Assembly: GCF_013410375.1 (NCBI RefSeq)
Contig: NZ_JACCFL010000001.1
Span: forward strand, 930,001 to 994,000
Length of the DNA stretch: 64,000 nucleotides
DNA from: Leifsonia shinshuensis
Lineage (GTDB): Bacteria; Actinomycetota; Actinomycetes; Actinomycetales; Microbacteriaceae
Direction of reading: 5' to 3'
Part shown: piece by piece, positions 3,654 through 13,785 of the stretch
How positions within the stretch are numbered: position 1 is the first letter of the stretch
Layout: the number at the start of each line of letters is the position of its first letter
The notes under the pieces: model-generated
Databases searched by the model: none
Told to the model about the DNA's origin: nothing
The model's input: only the letters and a program-made list of their open reading frames with translations
Translations under genes and position numbers: made by a program

Positions 3654-3835
3654 TGCGCCGACCGGCGCCCGATCCGGTAGCGTGAGTCATCCGCATCGAT
3701 CATCGGCGACGGGCACTTCCCCGGTTGGCGCCGTGGATCCGTGCGCATCCGGGCGACACATCCGGGGCGGCCCTCGCCGAGTCGGGGGACGTCGTCGCCC
3801 GGTCGGTGATGTCCAGCACCCTTCCGGAGGCAATG

Positions 3836-5461
3836 GTGAGTGATCGGCACGACGATCTCGCTGACGATGTCGATGTCCACCGGGGTTCCGGGCCGGGGCT
3901 TCCGGACGAGGTCGACGACGCGGTCGCGGCACTGCCGTCGCTCATCTCGCGAGGCGATCTGGCGGCGGCGAACGCTCTGGTTCGCCGATTCTGGTTCGAA
4001 CTGCTTCGCTCGCACGGCGACGAGCTGAGGGTCGCGCTGGACGCGATCCCGGCCGCCGCGCTGCGCGACCACCCGCTGCTGACGATGATGCTGGGCATCT
4101 GCTACAACGGCGTTCCGCACAAGCGCGCCAGAGCGCTGCGCTACTTCGCCACCGCGGTGCGCGCCGCGCGCTCCGGCCGGCCGGCTCTCGACGCGGTGGA
4201 CCGTGCGCTGATCCTCGTCAGCGAGAGCGCCGTCTACCGGCTGGTCGGCCGTCCCGCGAGGGGGGTCAAGCCCGCGCACTCCGCGATCCGGATCCTCGAC
4301 GGGATGAGCTCCGCCGAGCTCGAAGCGGTCAGCTCGCTGCCGAGGGTCTACTCGCAGGCCGGTGTCAGCCTGTACTACGGCGGCGACCTGAACGGGGCCC
4401 TGGCCGCCTTCGAGTCGGGCTTGGCGGAGTCCATGGACAAGCGGTCCTCCGACGGATTCGGCAACCTCGCGATGCTCGCCGGCATCCGCGCCCTGCGCGG
4501 GGAGCTGCACGAGGCGCGGGTCTACATCGAGCTGGCGCACTCCCCGGAGTGGTCCGATGACCAGCGGTCGATGTACACCGGGACGTTCTATCGCATCGCC
4601 GAGGCGATCTCCGCCTTGGAGGAGTTCGACCCGGTCGCCGCCCGGGCTCACCTCTCCGCGATGGTCAACGACCCGCGCACGATCGAGCACTGGATCACGA
4701 TCGCCACGACCGAGGCCCTGGCCGCGCTGCTCTCCGGTCGCCCCGGCGAGGGGCTCTCGCGGCTGGACGCCGTCGCCGGCTCGCGCAGTGAGGGCCGGTC
4801 CGCGGCGGCGCGCGGGCGGCTCTCCGCGACGCGCGCGTTGCTCCAGCTGGCTCTGGGCGCGCGCGACGCAGCCGGCGTCATCCTCCACCGCGACGCGTCG
4901 CCCGGCCCGGACCGTCACATCGCGCAGGCGCGCGTCGAGCTCGTCGCGGGTCGAAGCGGGTCGGCCCTGCGGGAACTGGGCAAGATCGCCGGTGACGACC
5001 TCCCGCCGCGAGCCGTGGCGGAGGCCATGACGATCGAGGCTGCGGCACTGCTCCGGCTTCCTTCGAGCGTCCGGTCGACGGGAGTGGTCGAACATCTCGG
5101 TTCGCTGCTCGAGCACACCGGCCTGCGGATGCCGCTGGCGCTCGTCCCGCCTGCCGATTTCGGGCGACTCCGCGCGGCATTGGTCGAACAGGGGTTCGGC
5201 GGCGTGTTCGAGGGACGCGACATCCGGTCCGTCCTCGCCGAGACGACCCCGGCCACGATCCTCAGCGAACGCGAGCAGGTCGTGCTCGCGGCGCTCCTGC
5301 GGCACAGTTCGCCGACCGGGATCGCAGCGGAGCTGGTGGTCTCGGTGAACACGGTCAAGACGCAGTTGCGCAGCATCTACCGCAAGCTCGGCGTGTCGAG
5401 CAGGGACGAGGCGATCGCGGTCGCCCTCGACCGGCACCTGCTGGCGGATCGCGACGGCTGA
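3836..5461 (+). CDS. LuxR-family transcriptional regulator, large TPR-like type
   Basis: About 541 residues. The last 65 form a LuxR/GerE helix-turn-helix (LSEREQVVLAALLRHSS, then VSVNTVKTQLRSIYRKLGV). The preceding 450 residues are alpha-helical with TPR-like repeats, as in the C-terminal half of MalT/LAL regulators, but no Walker A ATPase domain is present. The GTG at 3836 is preferred because GGAGG at 3826-3830 lies 5 nt before it; an ATG at 3833 is only 2 nt away, and an in-frame upstream start at 3725 lacks a site. It lies directly upstream of, and co-oriented with, the giant DUF11 surface gene, so control of that gene is a reasonable inference. Confidence 0.85.
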   Translation: MSDRHDDLADDVDVHRGSGPGLPDEVDDAVAALPSLISRGDLAAANALVRRFWFELLRSHGDELRVALDAIPAAALRDHPLLTMMLGICYNGVPHKRARALRYFATAVRAARSGRPALDAVDRALILVSESAVYRLVGRPARGVKPAHSAIRILDGMSSAELEAVSSLPRVYSQAGVSLYYGGDLNGALAAFESGLAESMDKRSSDGFGNLAMLAGIRALRGELHEARVYIELAHSPEWSDDQRSMYTGTFYRIAEAISALEEFDPVAARAHLSAMVNDPRTIEHWITIATTEALAALLSGRPGEGLSRLDAVAGSRSEGRSAAARGRLSATRALLQLALGARDAAGVILHRDASPGPDRHIAQARVELVAGRSGSALRELGKIAGDDLPPRAVAEAMTIEAAALLRLPSSVRSTGVVEHLGSLLEHTGLRMPLALVPPADFGRLRAALVEQGFGGVFEGRDIRSVLAETTPATILSEREQVVLAALLRHSSPTGIAAELVVSVNTVKTQLRSIYRKLGVSSRDEAIAVALDRHLLADRDG

Positions 5462-5787
5462 CCCGGCCCGCCGGGTGATTCCAGGGTGAGCGGAGGCCGG
5501 CGCGGCTTCGGAGCTTGGTAGAAACGAACGCGTCGCGTGCTGCCCGAATCAGCATCGACGATCCGGCCGGGCCCGTCCGGCCCGCCACCCGAAGCGGGCC
5601 GACGGGCGCGGCCCGCGGAGGGTGGATCGGCCCGGCGGACTCCCGCTCGCCTCGCGCGGGGTGAACCCCGGGGTGATCTCGGGGTGAAACCGGTCAGGTC
5701 CGATGGCGCTGATGAGCACCCTTTCGCTTAGCTGAGAATCGGCCGTGCGCGAAGACGTCCGGAGACACCTGGGGGAAAGGAACCGCT
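5462..5787 (+). promoter_or_regulatory. 326-bp leader of the giant surface gene with phased GGGTGA repeats
   Basis: No gene is visible here. GGGTGA occurs at 5473-5478 and 5484-5489 (11 nt apart) and again at 5659-5664, 5671-5676 and 5682-5687 (12 and 11 nt apart); the last three are each GGGGTGA. Spacing close to one helical turn places the repeats on one face of the DNA, as expected for a cooperative activator or repressor. The adjacent LuxR-type regulator is the obvious candidate binder, but this is inference. The promoter of the downstream gene must lie between 5690 and 5775. Confidence 0.4.
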
Positions 5788-7971
5788 GTGACGCGTGGCA
5801 CCGCTGAGGGCACGACCGCGGGCCGACGGATCGGCCGGACGATCCGTTCGCTGTTCTGGTACCGCGACAGACCGGCCCGAGGGTTTCGTGTAGTCTCCGC
5901 GCTGCTCGCGATCGGCGTCGGCGCGGTCTCCGTCTTCGGCCTCGCCGGAGCCGCCACGGCGGCGACGACCGCCGTCCACGAGATCACGACGAACTGGGTG
6001 GGGAACCCGGCGTCGGCGGCGTACGGCACCGCGCTGACGAGCGAATGGCACGTCAACACGAACGATGCCACCAACCCGCAGGCGAATGCCCCGGTCGACA
6101 ATGTCCGCCTGACCCTCGTCGCCACCAACGGCGTGTTCGCCGGCATTCCCGCCGTGTGCCAGACCAAGGGCGTGACGCCGGCCTCCGCCATCTCCGCCAA
6201 CGGCACCACCCTGGTCTGCAACCTGGGCACGATCACCGAAGGAACGGCCTCGGTCGTCCAGGCGCCCGTGCGCGCGACAGGAGCTGTCGGTTCGAAGCTC
6301 TCGGTGTCGGGCACGGTGACCTCGGACTCCGCAGCCGCTCCGGCCGGGCCGACGGCGACGACGCCGCTCCCGATCACCGGCAGCCACGGCATGGATCTGG
6401 TGCTGAGCGCACCGAACCAGAACTACCAGCAGTCCACGATCCCGAGCCGCAGCGGCGGGAACCGTCCCTCCATCGTGGTCGACTACGGTGTCGCGATGAC
6501 GACCGGGAGCATCCCGGGGCCGTCGAGCTACTCCTTCACCGTGGACATCGCGGTGTCGGTCGCCGGACAGCTCCCGGGACTCCAGTGGGAAGGCTGCTCG
6601 CCGGTCGACGACTCCGCTCAGGCCACCGGGATCCCGTACTCGGCGACCAGCTACTCCAACCGCACCAACGCCCCGGCGTGCACCATCAGCGGCAGCGGCA
6701 CGCACTACACCGTCACCCTCAGCGGCCTGGACTACTCGCTGCAGCACGTGCCGACGACGGACAGCCTCGGCAACGCGATCCCCTCGACGAGCTCCTTCAT
6801 CGCAGCCGGCCAGCTCCACTTCAGCTACACGACCCCGATCACGGCCACCACCGGCGTGACGTTCACCGCCACCCCGACTCCCTTCACGTTCAGCGACGGC
6901 GTCACCCAGCCCGAGACCAACACCACGAACGACTCGTCCGGCACCACTCTGGTGACCCCGGGCGTGTTCTCCACCATCTGGATGGGCAGCCCGACCGCGG
7001 GCCGTTCCCCCTGGGATGCGAACCTCTGGGCGGCGCCCGGGGCGGCGAAGGACAAGACGTTCCCCTGGCCGGCTGCGGGGTCCTCGACGAACCCCGGCCC
7101 GTACACCCTTGCGGACCAGCCGCTGGGGATCCAGGCCGACAGCGTCACCTGGTCCACCTACAGCGGATCGGGCGGCGCGGACATGGCCGGCTCGTGCGTC
7201 ATGGTGCAGAACCCGGCCGACTTCACTCCGCGCTACGCGGACTTCCTGGCCGCGGACGGCGCCTCCTACTCCAACATGACCACCGCGCACCTCTGGTACC
7301 GCACCGATGCGCTGAACACCAAGACCGAGACCTGCGGTGAGCCGGTGGGTGTCGCCGGAAGCCCCTGGACATCGATCCCGCTGCCGGCCGGCTGCTCCAC
7401 CCAGACGGCGTCGATCTCGCCCGCCTACTCCGACGACAAGTGCATCGTGAGCCTGCCTGCCGGCGTCACCGCCGTGAAGATGACCTGGAACCCGGCCGTC
7501 GACAAGCAGTTCCACCACTTCCTGCGGGCCTGGGGATACGTCCCCACGACGGCGCCGATCGGATCCGAGTCGTGGGCGGTCGGCGCGTTCAACGCCCCCT
7601 ACAACACGGCGACGGTCTTCCCGGGCTACCCGACCCTCAACAACTACATCAACATCAGCACCAACCCGAACGTGACCGGCACCATCCCGGGCAGCACCTA
7701 CGGGCCGAACACCAACGGCATCCGGGACGCGATGCGGATCCAGGGCCCGACCGGCGCCATCACCAAGACGACCCCGAGCACGACCGCGCAGCCCGGCGTC
7801 CCGGTCAGCTACTCCCTCACGGCGGAGGCGGACCTCGCCGTCCAGAGCCCGCCCAACCAGACCTTCACCGTCACGGACACGCTGCCGACGGGCATGAGCT
7901 ACGTCGCCGGCTCGGGTACGCCGACGCCCGCGCTGTCGACGAACGGCTCCGGCCAGCAGGTGCTCACCTAA
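5788..7971 (+). CDS. Giant DUF11-repeat surface protein, N-terminal part (ends at premature TAA)
   Basis: A GTG at 5788 follows a GGGGGAAAGG ribosome binding site. The first about 60 residues form a long signal peptide (Arg-rich start, hydrophobic core, AATAA-like cleavage region). Residues 60-660 are beta-rich, Ser/Thr/Asn-rich extracellular sequence, and a DUF11-type domain begins near residue 665 (ITKTTPSTTAQPG). The reading frame stops at TAA 7969-7971, codon 728, in the middle of that domain. The same frame resumes at once (TFTNVPANTP) and stays open to 13050. The natural reading is VLTYTFTN with a Tyr codon (TAC or TAT) turned into TAA. A one-base nonsense mutation, sequencing error or programmed readthrough would all look like this. 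If it is real, this product is secreted but lacks the cell-wall anchor. Confidence 0.8.
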   Translation: MTRGTAEGTTAGRRIGRTIRSLFWYRDRPARGFRVVSALLAIGVGAVSVFGLAGAATAATTAVHEITTNWVGNPASAAYGTALTSEWHVNTNDATNPQANAPVDNVRLTLVATNGVFAGIPAVCQTKGVTPASAISANGTTLVCNLGTITEGTASVVQAPVRATGAVGSKLSVSGTVTSDSAAAPAGPTATTPLPITGSHGMDLVLSAPNQNYQQSTIPSRSGGNRPSIVVDYGVAMTTGSIPGPSSYSFTVDIAVSVAGQLPGLQWEGCSPVDDSAQATGIPYSATSYSNRTNAPACTISGSGTHYTVTLSGLDYSLQHVPTTDSLGNAIPSTSSFIAAGQLHFSYTTPITATTGVTFTATPTPFTFSDGVTQPETNTTNDSSGTTLVTPGVFSTIWMGSPTAGRSPWDANLWAAPGAAKDKTFPWPAAGSSTNPGPYTLADQPLGIQADSVTWSTYSGSGGADMAGSCVMVQNPADFTPRYADFLAADGASYSNMTTAHLWYRTDALNTKTETCGEPVGVAGSPWTSIPLPAGCSTQTASISPAYSDDKCIVSLPAGVTAVKMTWNPAVDKQFHHFLRAWGYVPTTAPIGSESWAVGAFNAPYNTATVFPGYPTLNNYINISTNPNVTGTIPGSTYGPNTNGIRDAMRIQGPTGAITKTTPSTTAQPGVPVSYSLTAEADLAVQSPPNQTFTVTDTLPTGMSYVAGSGTPTPALSTNGSGQQVLT
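7969..7971 (+). other. In-frame nonsense codon (TAA) interrupting the giant surface gene
   Basis: The codon sits between ...QQVLT and TFTNVPANT, at a position where DUF11 domains usually carry an aromatic residue (Y-T-F). One change in the third base of TAC or TAT gives TAA. Both flanks are in the same frame (5788 and 7984 differ by a multiple of three), so there is no frameshift. No ribosome binding site or credible start lies within 30 nt downstream. Confidence 0.9.
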
Positions 7972-7983
7972 ACGTTCACGAAC

Positions 7984-10900
7984 GTGCCGGCGAACACCCC
8001 CCAGCCCATCACGTATCAGGCTCAGATCCCGTCCGGGACGACGGTCGCGCCGGGTACCGCGTTGACGAACCTCGCTCAGATCGATGTCCCGGGCGACAAC
8101 CGTCCGGCGGCCGCGCGCCAGGCGACGGCCACCGTGACGGTCCCGAACAACGGCGCCACGACCCTCGGCAAGTCGGCCGAGGCGAACACGCTCTCGTTCT
8201 ACGGCGACTCCTCGGCGTGGGACCTCGTCGTGCGGTCGCAGGACCCGGTCAGCAACCCGTACACCGACACCATCGACATCCTCCCGAACAAGGCGGACGG
8301 CCGCGGCACCACGATCGACGGCACGTATTCCGTGACCGGCGTGACCGCACCGGCCGGTTCGACGGTGTACTACTCGACCGCGCCGATCGCCTCGCTGAGC
8401 AACGACCCGCGCGCCGCCTCCAACGGCGGAACGCCGGGCAGCACCACCGGCAACACGGTGGGCTGGTCGACCACGGCCGTGGCCCACCCGACCGCGGTGC
8501 GCGTGATCGGCCCGGCGCTCGCACCGGGCGGCTCCCAGACGATCCGGATCGCGTTCACGACCCCGGCCGGCTCGAGCTGCACGGCTCCGGCGGCGTCCGA
8601 CAACAAGCCAGGCCAGCTGCTGGTGAACTCGGCGAACTCGATCGCCGGGCACACCGCGCTGCCCATGCTGTCGTCGGCGACCACCGCGATCGGCGACTGC
8701 TACGCCCTCGACCTGAAGAAGTACGTGCTGGTGAAGGGCGGCAACCCCGCGAAGGCCGGCGACTGGCATGACGCGAACAGCGTCGCGGACTACCAGCAGT
8801 ACGCCGCCGGCGACACGGTTCCCTACAAGATCACCGTGACGAACAAGGGCACGGGCACGCTGACGAACATCCCGGTGACCGATTCGCTCGTCCCCGGCTG
8901 CGATTTCACCGTCGCCAGCCTCGCGGCGGGAGCGTCGGCGTCCAACACGTGCTCCAGCACCGCGGTCGTCGGCACCACGGTCAACGTCGCCTCCACGTCG
9001 GTGACGCCGCCGTCCGGACCGGTTCTGACCGCCACCGACCCGGCCGGCATCGTCGTGCCCGACCCGTACCGCGTGGTGAAGACGGCCAACCCGGCGCCGG
9101 GAACCGCGGTCGCCCCGGGCGGCACCGTGACCTACACGATCACGGTGTCGGAACCGGCGGGCAGCTCCGCGCCCTCGCTGAACCCCTCGCTGACGGACGA
9201 CCTGTCGAAGGTGCTGGACGACGCGACCTACAACGGCGACGTCACGGCGTCGGCCGGAACGGCGTCCGTCTCCGGGAAGACCCTGCAGTGGTCGGCCGCG
9301 TCGATCATGCCGGGGCAGACCATCACGATCACCTACTCGGTGAAGGTCAACAACCCCGACACCGGCGACAAGGTGCTGACCAACGTGGTCACCACCCCGT
9401 CCGGCGGGAACTGCGTGACCGGCAACACCGATCCCGCGTGCACGGTCACGACGAACGTGGAGTCGTTCACGGTGGCGAAGTCCGCCTCGGTCGCGCAGGC
9501 CGCCGAAGGCCAGACGGTGACCTACACGGTGACCGTCACGAACACCGGCACAGCCGCGTACACGGCGGCGCACCCGGCGTCGTTCACGGATTCCCTCGCG
9601 GGTGTGCTCGATGACGCCACGTACAACAACGACGCGAGCAACGGGGCGACGTACGCCGCCCCGACCGTGTCCTGGTCCGGCGCGCTCGCCGTCGGAGCCA
9701 CCACGACCGTCACCTACTCCGTGACGGTGAAGACGCCCGACGGCGGCGACCACGTGCTGAAGAACGCGGTCACGCCCACCGGCGACGGCGGCTCGTGCGC
9801 CACCGCGGGCGCCTGCGCGACGCGCACCCCGGTCGCGTCGTACACGGTCGCCAAGACCGCGTCGGCGGCGACGACCACTCCGGGCGGCGTCGTGGTCTAC
9901 ACCGTGACGGTGACCAACACGGGGCAGGTCGGATACACGGCGGCGAACCCCGCCTCCTTCACCGACAGCCTCGCCGGTGTGCTGGACGACGCGACCTACA
10001 ACGGCGACGCGAACAACGGCGCGACGTACGCCGCCCCGACCATCTCGTGGTCGGGTGCCCTCGCCATCGGAGCCACCAGGACGATCACGTACTCCGTCAC
10101 GGTCAACACCCCGGACGCAGGCGACCATCTGCTGAAGAACGCCGTCGTCCCGACCGGTTCGGGGGGAAGCTGCACGACGGCCGCGGACTGCTCGACCACG
10201 ACCGCGGTCGGAAGCTACACGGTCGCGAAGACCGCGTCGACGGCCTCCACCACTCCCGGTTCGACCGTGACCTACACGATCGTCGTCACCAACACCGGGC
10301 AGGTCGCCTACACCGCCGCCAAGCCCGCGACGATCACCGACAACCTCACCGGCGTGCTGGATGACGCGGTCTACAACAACGACGCCTCCAACGGCGCGAC
10401 CTACGCGGCGCCCACGCTCAGCTGGGCGGGCCCGCTCGCCATCGGGGCCACGCAGACGATCACCTACTCGGTGACGGTGCGGAACCCGGATCGCGGCGAC
10501 CACGTGCTGAAGAACACCGTGTCCACGCCGCCGGGCGTCGGAAACTGCGACGCGGGTTCCGCGGACCCCGCCTGCTCGACCGTGACGCCGGTCAAGTCCT
10601 ACCGGGTCGTCAAGACGAGCCCCGCCACCACGGTGACCCCGGGCCAGGTCGTCCCCTACACGATCACGATCACCAACACGGGGCAGGTCCCGTACACGGC
10701 CGCCGATCCCGCGGTGTTCACCGATGACCTCACGCGCGTCCTCGACGACGCCGTGTACAACGGGGACGCCACGAACGGCGCCACCCTCACCGGGAGCACC
10801 CTCTCCTGGTCGGGTGCGCTGGCCGTCGGAGCCACCGTGACGGTGACCTACTCGGTGACCGTGAACACGCCGGACGCCGGCGACCACGTCCTCGACAACG

Positions 10901-13050
10901 CCGTGGTCACCGGGGTGACCGGCAACTGCGCGCCGGGATCGACCGATCCCTCGTGCGCGGTGCAGATCCCGACCAAGGCGTTCCACGTCACGAAGTCGGC
11001 CTCGTCGTCCACCACGACTCCGGGCGCGACCGTGACCTACACGATCGTGGTGACCAACACGGGCCAGGTCGACTACCCGGCATCGGCCCCGGCGAGCTTC
11101 ACCGACGACCTCACGGCCGTGCTCGACGACGCGACGTACAACAACGACGCGACGAACGGGGCCGTCTACTCCGCGCCCACGCTGTCGTGGTCGGGCGCGC
11201 TCCCCGTCGGCGCCTCCCGGACGATCACGTACACGGTGACCGTGAAGGATCCCGACGCGGGTGACCACGTGCTCGACAACACCGTCGTCACCCCGCCCGG
11301 TCTCGGCGGCGACTGCACGGTCGACTCGACCGATCCGGACTGCTCGGTGAGGGTCCCCGTCCAGTCGTACACGGTCGCGAAGGCGGCATCCACGGCCACC
11401 ACGACCGAGGGCTCCCGCGTCACCTACACGGTGACGGTGACCAACACCGGCGCGGTCGACTACACCGCGGCAGCCCCGGCGACCTTCACCGACGACCTGA
11501 CGAAGGTGCTCGATGACGCCGTCTACAACAACGACGCCACGAACGGTGCGACCTACGCCGCGCCGACCCTGAGCTGGGCGGGCGCCCTCCCCGTCGGCGG
11601 CACGAAGACCATCAGCTATTCGGTGACGGTCGCGAGCCCCGACCACGGCGACCACTCGCTGAAGAACAGCGTGGCGCCCACGGCGGACGGCGGAAGCTGC
11701 GCCACGGCCGGAGGGTGCGCCACCACGACGCCCGTCCAGTCGTACTCGGTGGTGAAGACATCGTCCACCACGACCACGGAGCCCGGCGGCACGGTCTCGT
11801 ACACCATCACCGTGACGAACACCGGACAGGTCCCGTTCACCGCGGCGAACCCGGCCTCCTTCACGGACGACCTCACCAGCGTGCTCGACGACGCGACGTA
11901 CAACAACGACGCGACGAACGCGGCCGTCTACTCGGCCCCGGTGCTCTCCTGGTCCGGCGCCCTCGCGATCGGCGCCACGCACACCGTCACGTACTCGGTG
12001 ACGGTGAAGAGCCCGGACACCGGGGACAAGCTCCTCACCAACGCCGTCGTCACTCCCACTGGCCCCTGTGTGTCGGGATCGACCGATCCGGACTGCGTGG
12101 TCGTCGTGCCCGTGAAGTCGTACTCGACCGTGAAGACGGCCTCCGCGGTCGACACCACGCCGGGCGCGACCGTCACCTACACGATCGTGGTCACCAACAC
12201 CGGAGCCGTCCCGTACACCGCTGCGGCGCCGGCGACCTTCCGGGACGACCTCAGCCGGGTCCTCGATGACGCGACCTACAACAACGACGCCACCGGCGGA
12301 GCGGTGTACGCGGCTCCGACGCTGAGCTGGGCCGGGGCGCTCCCGGTCGGGGGGACGGCGACCATCACCTACTCGGTGACGGTGAAGTCTCCGGACACCG
12401 GCGATCACGTCCTCCGGAACGCGGTCGTCACCCCGACAGGACCGTGCGCGGCCGGCTCGACCGACTCCACGTGCACGACCACGGTCCCCGTGCGGTCGTA
12501 TCACGTCGCCAAGAAGTCGTCGGCGACCACGGTCGCTCCCGGCGGAGTCGTGACCTACACGATCACCGTCACCAACACCGGAGCCGTGCCGTTCACGAGC
12601 AGCGCGCCCGCGACCTTCACGGACGACCTGACCGACGTCCTCACCGGCGCCACCTACAACGCCGATGCGACGAGCGGCGCGACCTACACCGCGCCGACGC
12701 TCGCCTGGGCGGGCGCACTGGCGGTCGGCCAGACCGTCCACGTGACCTACAGCGTGAGACTCCTCGCCGCCGACCGTCCGGGCACCGTCCTGCACAATGT
12801 CGTCGCCACGCCGACCGACCCGGCGGGCGAGGTCTCGAACTGCCTGGCCGGAGACACCGACCCGGACTGCGCCGCGGATGTGACGGTCGACCCGCCGGGG
12901 GTGCCGCCGACGGACCCGCCGGCAGCGTCCACCCCGCTCGCCCGCACCGGCAGCGACCTCCTGCCGCCGTTCCTCTGGGGCGCTCTGCTCCTGCTGACCG
13001 GATTCGGACTGGTGCTCGGGGCACGGCTGCGACGTCGGCGCCGCAGCTGA
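7984..13050 (+). CDS. Giant DUF11-repeat surface protein, C-terminal part with LAxTG sorting signal
   Basis: About 1,688 residues, in the same frame as the upstream part and best viewed as the rest of one gene of about 2,420 codons. The GTG at 7984 is only the first possible start and has no ribosome binding site. It contains the end of one DUF11-type domain, a spacer, another DUF11-like domain (near ALDLKKYVLVKGGN) and then ten tandem modules of about 127 residues, each opening with a '[YF]xVxK' motif and containing 'YT[VI]xVTNTG' and 'LDDATYNNDATNGA'. It ends with a Pro-rich spacer, LARTG, a hydrophobic stretch and RLRRRRRS: a sortase sorting signal of the LAxTG kind typical of actinobacterial class E sortases. 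No sortase gene is in the window. Without readthrough or reversion this half is probably not made. Confidence 0.8.
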   Translation: MPANTPQPITYQAQIPSGTTVAPGTALTNLAQIDVPGDNRPAAARQATATVTVPNNGATTLGKSAEANTLSFYGDSSAWDLVVRSQDPVSNPYTDTIDILPNKADGRGTTIDGTYSVTGVTAPAGSTVYYSTAPIASLSNDPRAASNGGTPGSTTGNTVGWSTTAVAHPTAVRVIGPALAPGGSQTIRIAFTTPAGSSCTAPAASDNKPGQLLVNSANSIAGHTALPMLSSATTAIGDCYALDLKKYVLVKGGNPAKAGDWHDANSVADYQQYAAGDTVPYKITVTNKGTGTLTNIPVTDSLVPGCDFTVASLAAGASASNTCSSTAVVGTTVNVASTSVTPPSGPVLTATDPAGIVVPDPYRVVKTANPAPGTAVAPGGTVTYTITVSEPAGSSAPSLNPSLTDDLSKVLDDATYNGDVTASAGTASVSGKTLQWSAASIMPGQTITITYSVKVNNPDTGDKVLTNVVTTPSGGNCVTGNTDPACTVTTNVESFTVAKSASVAQAAEGQTVTYTVTVTNTGTAAYTAAHPASFTDSLAGVLDDATYNNDASNGATYAAPTVSWSGALAVGATTTVTYSVTVKTPDGGDHVLKNAVTPTGDGGSCATAGACATRTPVASYTVAKTASAATTTPGGVVVYTVTVTNTGQVGYTAANPASFTDSLAGVLDDATYNGDANNGATYAAPTISWSGALAIGATRTITYSVTVNTPDAGDHLLKNAVVPTGSGGSCTTAADCSTTTAVGSYTVAKTASTASTTPGSTVTYTIVVTNTGQVAYTAAKPATITDNLTGVLDDAVYNNDASNGATYAAPTLSWAGPLAIGATQTITYSVTVRNPDRGDHVLKNTVSTPPGVGNCDAGSADPACSTVTPVKSYRVVKTSPATTVTPGQVVPYTITITNTGQVPYTAADPAVFTDDLTRVLDDAVYNGDATNGATLTGSTLSWSGALAVGATVTVTYSVTVNTPDAGDHVLDNAVVTGVTGNCAPGSTDPSCAVQIPTKAFHVTKSASSSTTTPGATVTYTIVVTNTGQVDYPASAPASFTDDLTAVLDDATYNNDATNGAVYSAPTLSWSGALPVGASRTITYTVTVKDPDAGDHVLDNTVVTPPGLGGDCTVDSTDPDCSVRVPVQSYTVAKAASTATTTEGSRVTYTVTVTNTGAVDYTAAAPATFTDDLTKVLDDAVYNNDATNGATYAAPTLSWAGALPVGGTKTISYSVTVASPDHGDHSLKNSVAPTADGGSCATAGGCATTTPVQSYSVVKTSSTTTTEPGGTVSYTITVTNTGQVPFTAANPASFTDDLTSVLDDATYNNDATNAAVYSAPVLSWSGALAIGATHTVTYSVTVKSPDTGDKLLTNAVVTPTGPCVSGSTDPDCVVVVPVKSYSTVKTASAVDTTPGATVTYTIVVTNTGAVPYTAAAPATFRDDLSRVLDDATYNNDATGGAVYAAPTLSWAGALPVGGTATITYSVTVKSPDTGDHVLRNAVVTPTGPCAAGSTDSTCTTTVPVRSYHVAKKSSATTVAPGGVVTYTITVTNTGAVPFTSSAPATFTDDLTDVLTGATYNADATSGATYTAPTLAWAGALAVGQTVHVTYSVRLLAADRPGTVLHNVVATPTDPAGEVSNCLAGDTDPDCAADVTVDPPGVPPTDPPAASTPLARTGSDLLPPFLWGALLLLTGFGLVLGARLRRRRRS
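9067..12850 (+). repeat. Array of ten tandem about 381-bp DUF11-type coding repeats
   Basis: Modules start at the Tyr/Phe codon of motifs such as YRVVK (9067), FTVAK, YTVAK and YHVAK (12499). The average period is 381 nt (127 residues). Copies differ at many positions but share long near-identical blocks, notably around TFTDDLTxVLDDATYNNDATNGA. Copy-number change by recombination is expected in such an array, and it may also be hard to assemble from short reads. Confidence 0.85.
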
Positions 13051-13125
13051 CGGACGAGAACCGTGCTGCGCGCCCGCCCCACGCAGGGGCGGGCGCGTAG
13101 CGACCTCCACCACGAAAGCGCGCAC

Positions 13126-13785
13126 ATGAACACCCCGCACAACCGCAGGCCCACCCTCCGCCGATGGACCATCGTGGCGGCGGCGGCCCTCATCGGCAGC
13201 GTCCTCCTCTCCGCGCCTGCCGCGTCGGTAGCGGCCGCCCAGCCGGCTCCGGACGGGCTCTCGATCGCGATCACCGACGGGGCGGCGGAGACGACCTCCG
13301 GTGCGTCCTCGAACTACACCGTGACGGTCACGAACCGGGGGACGACGCCGGTGAGCGCGGAACTGGTCGTCGCTCTCCCGCCCTTCGCCGCCTTCTCGGA
13401 GGCGAAAGGCGCGCACGTGGAGAAGACGGAAGCCGCGTGGACGGTGACCGTCGCCCCCGGCTCGTCCGAGCGCCGTCACGCGACCGCCGACATCGGTCGC
13501 ATCCCCGCCGGCGAGGTCCGGGTCACGACGCTCGCGACGCTGTACGCGTCGGGGGACCGCTCGCGCATCCTCGTCCGCGCTGCCGACGCGAACGCCATCC
13601 AGGGGGTGCTCGACCCGGCGCACACCGTCGGGCAGAGTCCGGCGAAGGTCAGTGCCGCACCCGGAGACTCCGCTGTCATCGTCGTCGTCTCCGCCTGCGC
13701 TGTGCTTCTCGCGCTCGCCATCGTCGGGGTCGTCGTGTTCCGCCGTGTGCGCCGCCGCCGTCGCGGAGTGCGGGGGACCGCTTAA
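13126..13785 (+). CDS. Small membrane-anchored DUF11-domain protein
   Basis: 219 residues. The ATG at 13126 opens a signal peptide (Arg-rich start, hydrophobic core, ending near AAAQPAP). Residues 45-165 make a single DUF11-like beta domain (SNYTVTVTNRGTTPVSAELVV). Near residues 185-210 is one membrane helix followed by a basic tail (RRVRRRRRG), giving an N-out, C-in anchor without an LPxTG-like signal. It starts 76 bp after the giant DUF11 gene in the same orientation and is likely in the same transcription unit. It shares the domain type with the giant protein, so the two may interact at the surface; that is inference. Confidence 0.75.
   Translation: MNTPHNRRPTLRRWTIVAAAALIGSVLLSAPAASVAAAQPAPDGLSIAITDGAAETTSGASSNYTVTVTNRGTTPVSAELVVALPPFAAFSEAKGAHVEKTEAAWTVTVAPGSSERRHATADIGRIPAGEVRVTTLATLYASGDRSRILVRAADANAIQGVLDPAHTVGQSPAKVSAAPGDSAVIVVVSACAVLLALAIVGVVVFRRVRRRRRGVRGTA

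Follow-up and report, generated by a model that had tools for sequence, protein, structure and literature searches.

An in-frame TAA, probably a recent nonsense mutation, cuts an otherwise intact fibrillar-adhesin-like gene in Leifsonia shinshuensis

Fibrillar adhesins with isopeptide-bonded stalks, whose stalk domains include DUF11 (CLIPPER), DUF7507 (CLIPPER_2) and DUF7927 (PMC12617251, PMC9210967), are the closest described counterparts of the locus analysed here. As presented in the parts of those papers available to us, they share with it an N-terminal head, a tandem stalk of Ig-like domains carrying a Lys-Asp-Asn triad, and a C-terminal LAxTG signal. In DUF7927 the Lys, Asp and Asn are the predicted isopeptide bond residues (PMC12617251), and a sortase motif no more than 50 residues from the end is a feature used for fibrillar adhesins (PMC9210967). 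The locus differs from these systems in two respects: by sequence its head matches neither a named domain nor a solved structure, and its copy of the gene is cut by a stop codon. A second point of comparison is provided by class E sortases, which use LAXTG signals (Streptomyces SrtE1; from the available part of PMC5148588). Our locus resembles the substrates of SrtE1 in its LARTG tail and in that its genome also encodes a class E sortase; in contrast to those substrates, however, its sorting signal comes only after the stop, and the sortase would thus meet it only on a read-through product. The third comparison is with bacterial in-frame stops, which Belinky et al. 2021, in the portion of the paper we could draw on, describe as widespread, associated with dN/dS <1 and mostly of brief persistence (PMC7918605). 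Here too there is a single in-frame stop, constraint on both sides of it, and an apparently short life on the scale of species; but whereas the large-scale part of that work used stops common to at least two species, the present stop occurs in no aligned relative.

The window – the whole stretch of DNA analysed, 64,000 nucleotides long – comprises positions 930001-994000 of NZ_JACCFL010000001.1, from the single-contig genome of L. shinshuensis (GCF_013410375.1; 4,418,190 bases). Reading of open frames and codons gives one plus-strand frame from GTG 5788 to TGA 13048-13050, with the TAA as its sole internal stop (Table 1). The original prediction, that a single frame lies on both sides of this codon and is broken nowhere else, therefore stands. 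In our judgement an otherwise intact, accessory gene for a fibrillar-adhesin-like protein has probably been cut by a nonsense mutation that is both real and recent. Translation of the window's gene ends at codon 728. The first piece had been described as an N-terminal half: it does end at the TAA, but with 727 of about 2,420 residues it amounts to ~30% of the full-length protein, not half. Head and anchor form one translated chain in several intact relatives whose tail is of the sortase type; this is not so in the window, where the TAA intervenes.

A long open frame was rejected as evidence for the gene, the antisense strand being open across the same region: an ORF of 2631 aa (5728-13623, minus strand) spans the whole gene without a stop. 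This openness is a composition effect of high GC3 and would mislead arguments based on ORF length. Open length is uninformative in this GC-rich DNA; what identifies the gene is homology before as well as after the stop.

Table 1. Features of the interrupted gene and its neighbours (positions are those of the window).
Feature	Position	Strand	Remarks
LuxR/GerE-type regulator gene, directly upstream	3725..5461	+	Pfam GerE, E=2e-10
N piece of surface-protein gene	5788..7971	+	GTG start, 727 aa, ends at in-frame TAA
Invariant Lys codon, interrupted domain (predicted isopeptide triad)	7765..7767	+	Lys in 36/36 rows
Invariant Asp codon, interrupted domain (predicted isopeptide triad)	7876..7878	+	Asp in 36/36 rows
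In-frame TAA	7969..7971	+	Aligned relatives carry Tyr or Trp there
C piece	7972..13050	+	1692 codons, ends TGA, 0 further stops; remainder of interrupted domain, DUF7507/DUF11, ten DUF7927, sorting signal
Gene-caller downstream ORF	7984..13050	+	GTG start, 1688 aa; equals database protein P0003 except that its start residue is written M
Invariant Asn codon, interrupted domain, lost from N piece	8068..8070	+	Asn in 36/36 rows
Ten tandem DUF7927 stalk repeats	9067..12873 (ends approximate)	+	Pfam; each retains the published isopeptide triad (Lys, Asp, Asn)
LARTG sorting signal	12937..12951	+	Followed by hydrophobic stretch and Arg-rich tail
Small gene for a secreted, membrane-anchored partner	13063..13785	+	Likely start ATG 13126, 219 aa; secreted and anchored as assessed by eye

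The N piece starts with a signal peptide (judged by eye in the translation) and matches no Pfam family. Its head, which thus belongs to no named family, gave no meaningful match in a profile search against solved chains (one chance-level match, E 0.77); near-full-length homologues of the head are 43-89% identical. Residues 660-711 of the N piece show a weak match to a DUF11-type repeat (19.6 bits, below the curated cut-off of 24). In the C piece, Pfam models – which overlap one another – mark 10 DUF7927, 11 DUF11 and 2 DUF7507 stretches, and NCBIfam profiles find TIGR04226 isopeptide domains. The ten tandem repeats noticed originally correspond to the ten DUF7927 stretches, all of which retain the Lys-Asp-Asn triad. 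The LAxTG sorting signal, also noticed, is intact: LARTG starts 38 codons before the end of the gene (stop counted) and so lies within the last 50 residues. Tandem stalk domains, sortase motif and head together suggest that the gene encodes a fibrillar-adhesin-like surface protein. The class E sortase gene elsewhere in the genome (L027) scores 238.8 bits against a cut-off of 160. A second sortase-like protein of 414 aa (L028 883-2127, plus strand) matches Pfam Sortase and falls below every NCBIfam class cut-off.

The TAA sits between the invariant Asp and the invariant Asn of an Ig-like domain of DUF11/D2 type. In this domain Lys, Asp and Asn would be expected to form an isopeptide bond; the N piece keeps the Lys and the Asp, and is without the Asn and the final strands. 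Since the stop separates Asp from Asn in the predicted cross-link, the released piece cannot close the domain, and the released head, its last domain being without the predicted isopeptide Asn, may be unstable. In the copies from Rudaea (see below) the residues equivalent to the stop, 823 and 723, fall within the best TIGR04226 stretches, 753-861 and 653-762 respectively; no single TIGR04226 stretch at this site reaches threshold alone.

Tyrosine had been predicted at the stop codon, and relatives bear this out, with Trp as a second common residue. A simple codon comparison with 12 named relatives found Tyr in ten and Trp in one, while L026 was not cleanly aligned at the codon. In a multiple alignment of 36 rows, Tyr occurs 16 times, Trp 20 times and a stop in none. 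The alignment combines 11 of the 12 named loci with 25 of 126 database proteins picked for spread; it omits the Pseudolysinimonas kribbensis locus (L025) because of its frame breaks, and L021 and P0025 are identical, which leaves 35 distinct rows. A motif search at the site matched 52 of the 126 database proteins (25 Tyr, 25 Trp and 2 Phe). The equivalent frame is open in close relatives, and several Leifsonia species are among the nearest named relatives for this gene. Similarity to two of them forms a mosaic: the N piece is nearer to Leifsonia sp. TF02-11 (L020; 89%) than to L. shinshuensis DP-L11 (L019; 78%), while at the beginning of the C piece (first 330 residues) DP-L11 is slightly nearer (91%) than TF02-11 (89%).

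Constraint was assessed from branch-private changes, counted in the window and in two intact relatives only, TF02-11 and DP-L11. In the C piece the nonsynonymous to synonymous count is 67:204 on the window branch, as compared to 56:172 and 43:121 in the intact relatives, where neutral drift would give a ratio of 1.8-2.6. For assumed neutral ratios of 1.5, 2.0 and 2.7, no more than 9%, 7% and 5% of the window branch could have been neutral (97.5th percentile, rounded). The corresponding counts for the N piece (rounded) are 27:74 for the window, 29:56 for TF02-11 and 116:102 for DP-L11, and the yardstick that the two relatives provide here is not uniform. Pairwise dN/dS between the window and TF02-11 and DP-L11 is 0.14 and 0.24 before the stop, and 0.13 and 0.14 after it. 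These values indicate purifying selection before as well as after the stop, and they fit a young stop equally well. A degraded pseudogene, with decay downstream, was rejected: there is one lesion, the C-piece ratio is that of the intact branches, and ten of ten stalk triads are kept along with the sorting signal. The original view that the later domains are intact and the lesion recent agrees with these data. A constrained C piece implies that the stop is young, or that the downstream part is still used; continued translation of that part would equally predict an absence of decay. In DP-L11 itself the head branch (L019 8001-10172) stands at 116:102 and its stalk at 43:121, which may reflect replacement or diversification of the head.

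If the stop were an error of sequencing or assembly – a possibility raised at the outset – the gene would be intact in the cell. That a single base is concerned, with no other lesion and no decay downstream, is what such an error would produce. Substitution errors in finished genomes are rare. A search with the first 330 C-piece residues against 5.8 billion proteins, which scored the 7991 candidates with most words in common, returned as top match (best 120 of 193 matches) a protein, P0003, that is exactly the 1688-aa ORF beginning after the stop. Its cluster has four members on three contigs (1688 aa being the length of the representative), the longest of 4,495,986 bases, whereas the contig from which the window comes has 4,418,190; the cluster of the neighbouring LuxR regulator has three members on three contigs and the same longest contig. 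The matches that follow P0003 are longer proteins of at most 91% identity, some from other Leifsonia, and no longer copy above 91% is among the best 120 of the 193. The simplest reading, we infer, is that at least one other chromosome of the same species carries the truncated gene, though the contigs may not be independent strains; by the same reading, the searched protein database would hold no intact same-species copy. The 727-aa N piece, searched with itself, is not among the proteins matched (its best match, P0006, is 89% identical), and may be hidden in a cluster represented by a longer protein; because it is missing as a database protein, the case for the same stop on the other contigs is weakened. 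With the fragment predicted as a protein on another chromosome-sized contig, an error seems to us improbable. The C fragment now stored as a database protein calls for caution in annotation, as it is unlikely to exist alone.

If the stop is real, the gene product could still be completed or put to use, and four such possibilities were weighed. Low-rate readthrough would yield a little full-length, wall-anchored adhesin and let selection keep the downstream part. Downstream constraint and ten intact triads are consistent with it, as are the breadth of bacterial in-frame stops with dN/dS <1 (in the available part of PMC7918605) and the finding in E. coli that TAA ends 6 of 15 native genes with detected read-through (from the part of PMC11126739 at hand). 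Yet in the E. coli reporters of that study TAA is the tightest stop, with a mean signal of about 0.01-0.05% of wild type. No dedicated suppressor was found either: all 45 tRNAs found carry sense anticodons, none of them reading ochre, which led us to reject recoding by tRNA as far as these 45 are concerned; and the 100 bases after the stop show no RNA structure (z +1.0; 170 of 200 shuffles fold equally well or better). The stop is absent from every aligned relative, so that readthrough cannot be argued from conservation, and the youth of the stop explains the constraint equally well. Tolerance through readthrough, part of the original prediction, thus found no positive support and is unlikely. 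Separate production of the downstream ORF by re-initiation at GTG 7984, an in-frame codon only 12 bases past the stop, is very improbable indeed: no Shine-Dalgarno-like sequence precedes it (by eye), nearly all compared relatives simply use the codon for an internal Val, and the product would have no signal peptide and be unable to reach the sortase. Truncation might itself have been selected, the soluble head being released as a decoy or by adhesin shedding and the stop being fixed in the species. Such fixation fits the presence of the truncated fragment, and of the neighbour gene, on three contigs each, perhaps every sequenced member of the species, as well as an N piece more constrained on the window branch than in either intact relative. 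A head ending in a domain without its predicted isopeptide Asn is, however, a poor design for a stable product, and decay downstream, expected after long fixation, shows no sign of having begun; we regard selected truncation as quite unlikely. We also think it doubtful, to much the same degree, that the stop is both fixed and functional, giving a released head plus traces of full-length, wall-anchored protein by failure of termination, although a fixed stop with trace full-length protein would explain the constraint on 1692 downstream codons and their ten triads.

A recent nonsense mutation remains the preferred explanation; genes are commonly lost in this way, and no new mechanism is called for. 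The protein of intact relatives would be exported, isopeptide bonds would lock its stalk domains, and a class E sortase would attach it to the wall by the LAxTG tail, so that the N-terminal head is held off the cell. In the window strain translation would stop at codon 728; the cell would export, and possibly release, at most a head of fewer than 730 residues with its last domain unfinished and no anchor, and the ten-repeat stalk would not be made in quantity. The probable product is thus just the detached front part of the protein, secreted as a soluble head that has no wall anchor, as the anatomy of the gene suggests, and the adhesin function would be lost. The locus offers a clean example of a giant adhesin gene either very early in its loss or subject to an on/off polymorphism, with one stop, no decay, and a lesion that separates two partners of a predicted covalent cross-link. 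Should the stop prove common to several strains that still retain the downstream part, the locus would become a testable case of a tolerated in-frame stop in a high-GC actinobacterium.

Distribution of the gene is patchy. Any match is found in 9 of 28 genomes of the genus (own included), nearly the whole head at at least 79% identity in 4 of the 28 (own included), and a match in 25 of 398 genomes of the family, a sample drawn from a larger group, with the best two candidates per genome scored. Where the head match is near-full-length the open frame is 1709-3543 aa, as against 751 in the window; in one genome (G040) the head is in pieces, with open frames of 1362 and 391. The gene is accessory, so that its loss is plausible. 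A replacing second copy was considered and rejected: a search of the genome with the N piece gives one place only, and a search for DUF7927 gives one other, weak place below the cut-off. Among the listed papers on Leifsonia with adhesins or pseudogenes, no title or abstract opening mentions this gene; the term DUF7927 occurs in one paper.

Both flanking genes tend to accompany the adhesin. The LuxR regulator is syntenic in TF02-11 and DP-L11, where it is 79-80% identical and lies beside the orthologous adhesin; in its database cluster (P0130) the start is placed 36 codons later, giving 542 aa. A homologue of the small gene downstream occurs near the orthologous adhesin in five loci (L019, L020, L016, L022 and L025), and its product may be a conserved partner of the adhesin; it matches no Pfam or NCBIfam family. 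The copy in P. kribbensis (L025 7977-17023) contains several changes of reading frame, which represent either decay or indel errors of assembly.

The same head, at 75-81% identity, is also present in Rudaea (Gammaproteobacteria), on contigs of >1 Mb (L086 2565-14366 and L087 2679-16349, both minus strand; also L018 and L024). There it is joined to different and much longer DUF11 stalks, in proteins of 3933 and 4556 aa, and the C-terminus has a short motif, a hydrophobic stretch and an Arg/Lys tail in place of LAxTG. These comparisons suggest that a single head serves in more than one phylum, combined with anchors that can be exchanged.
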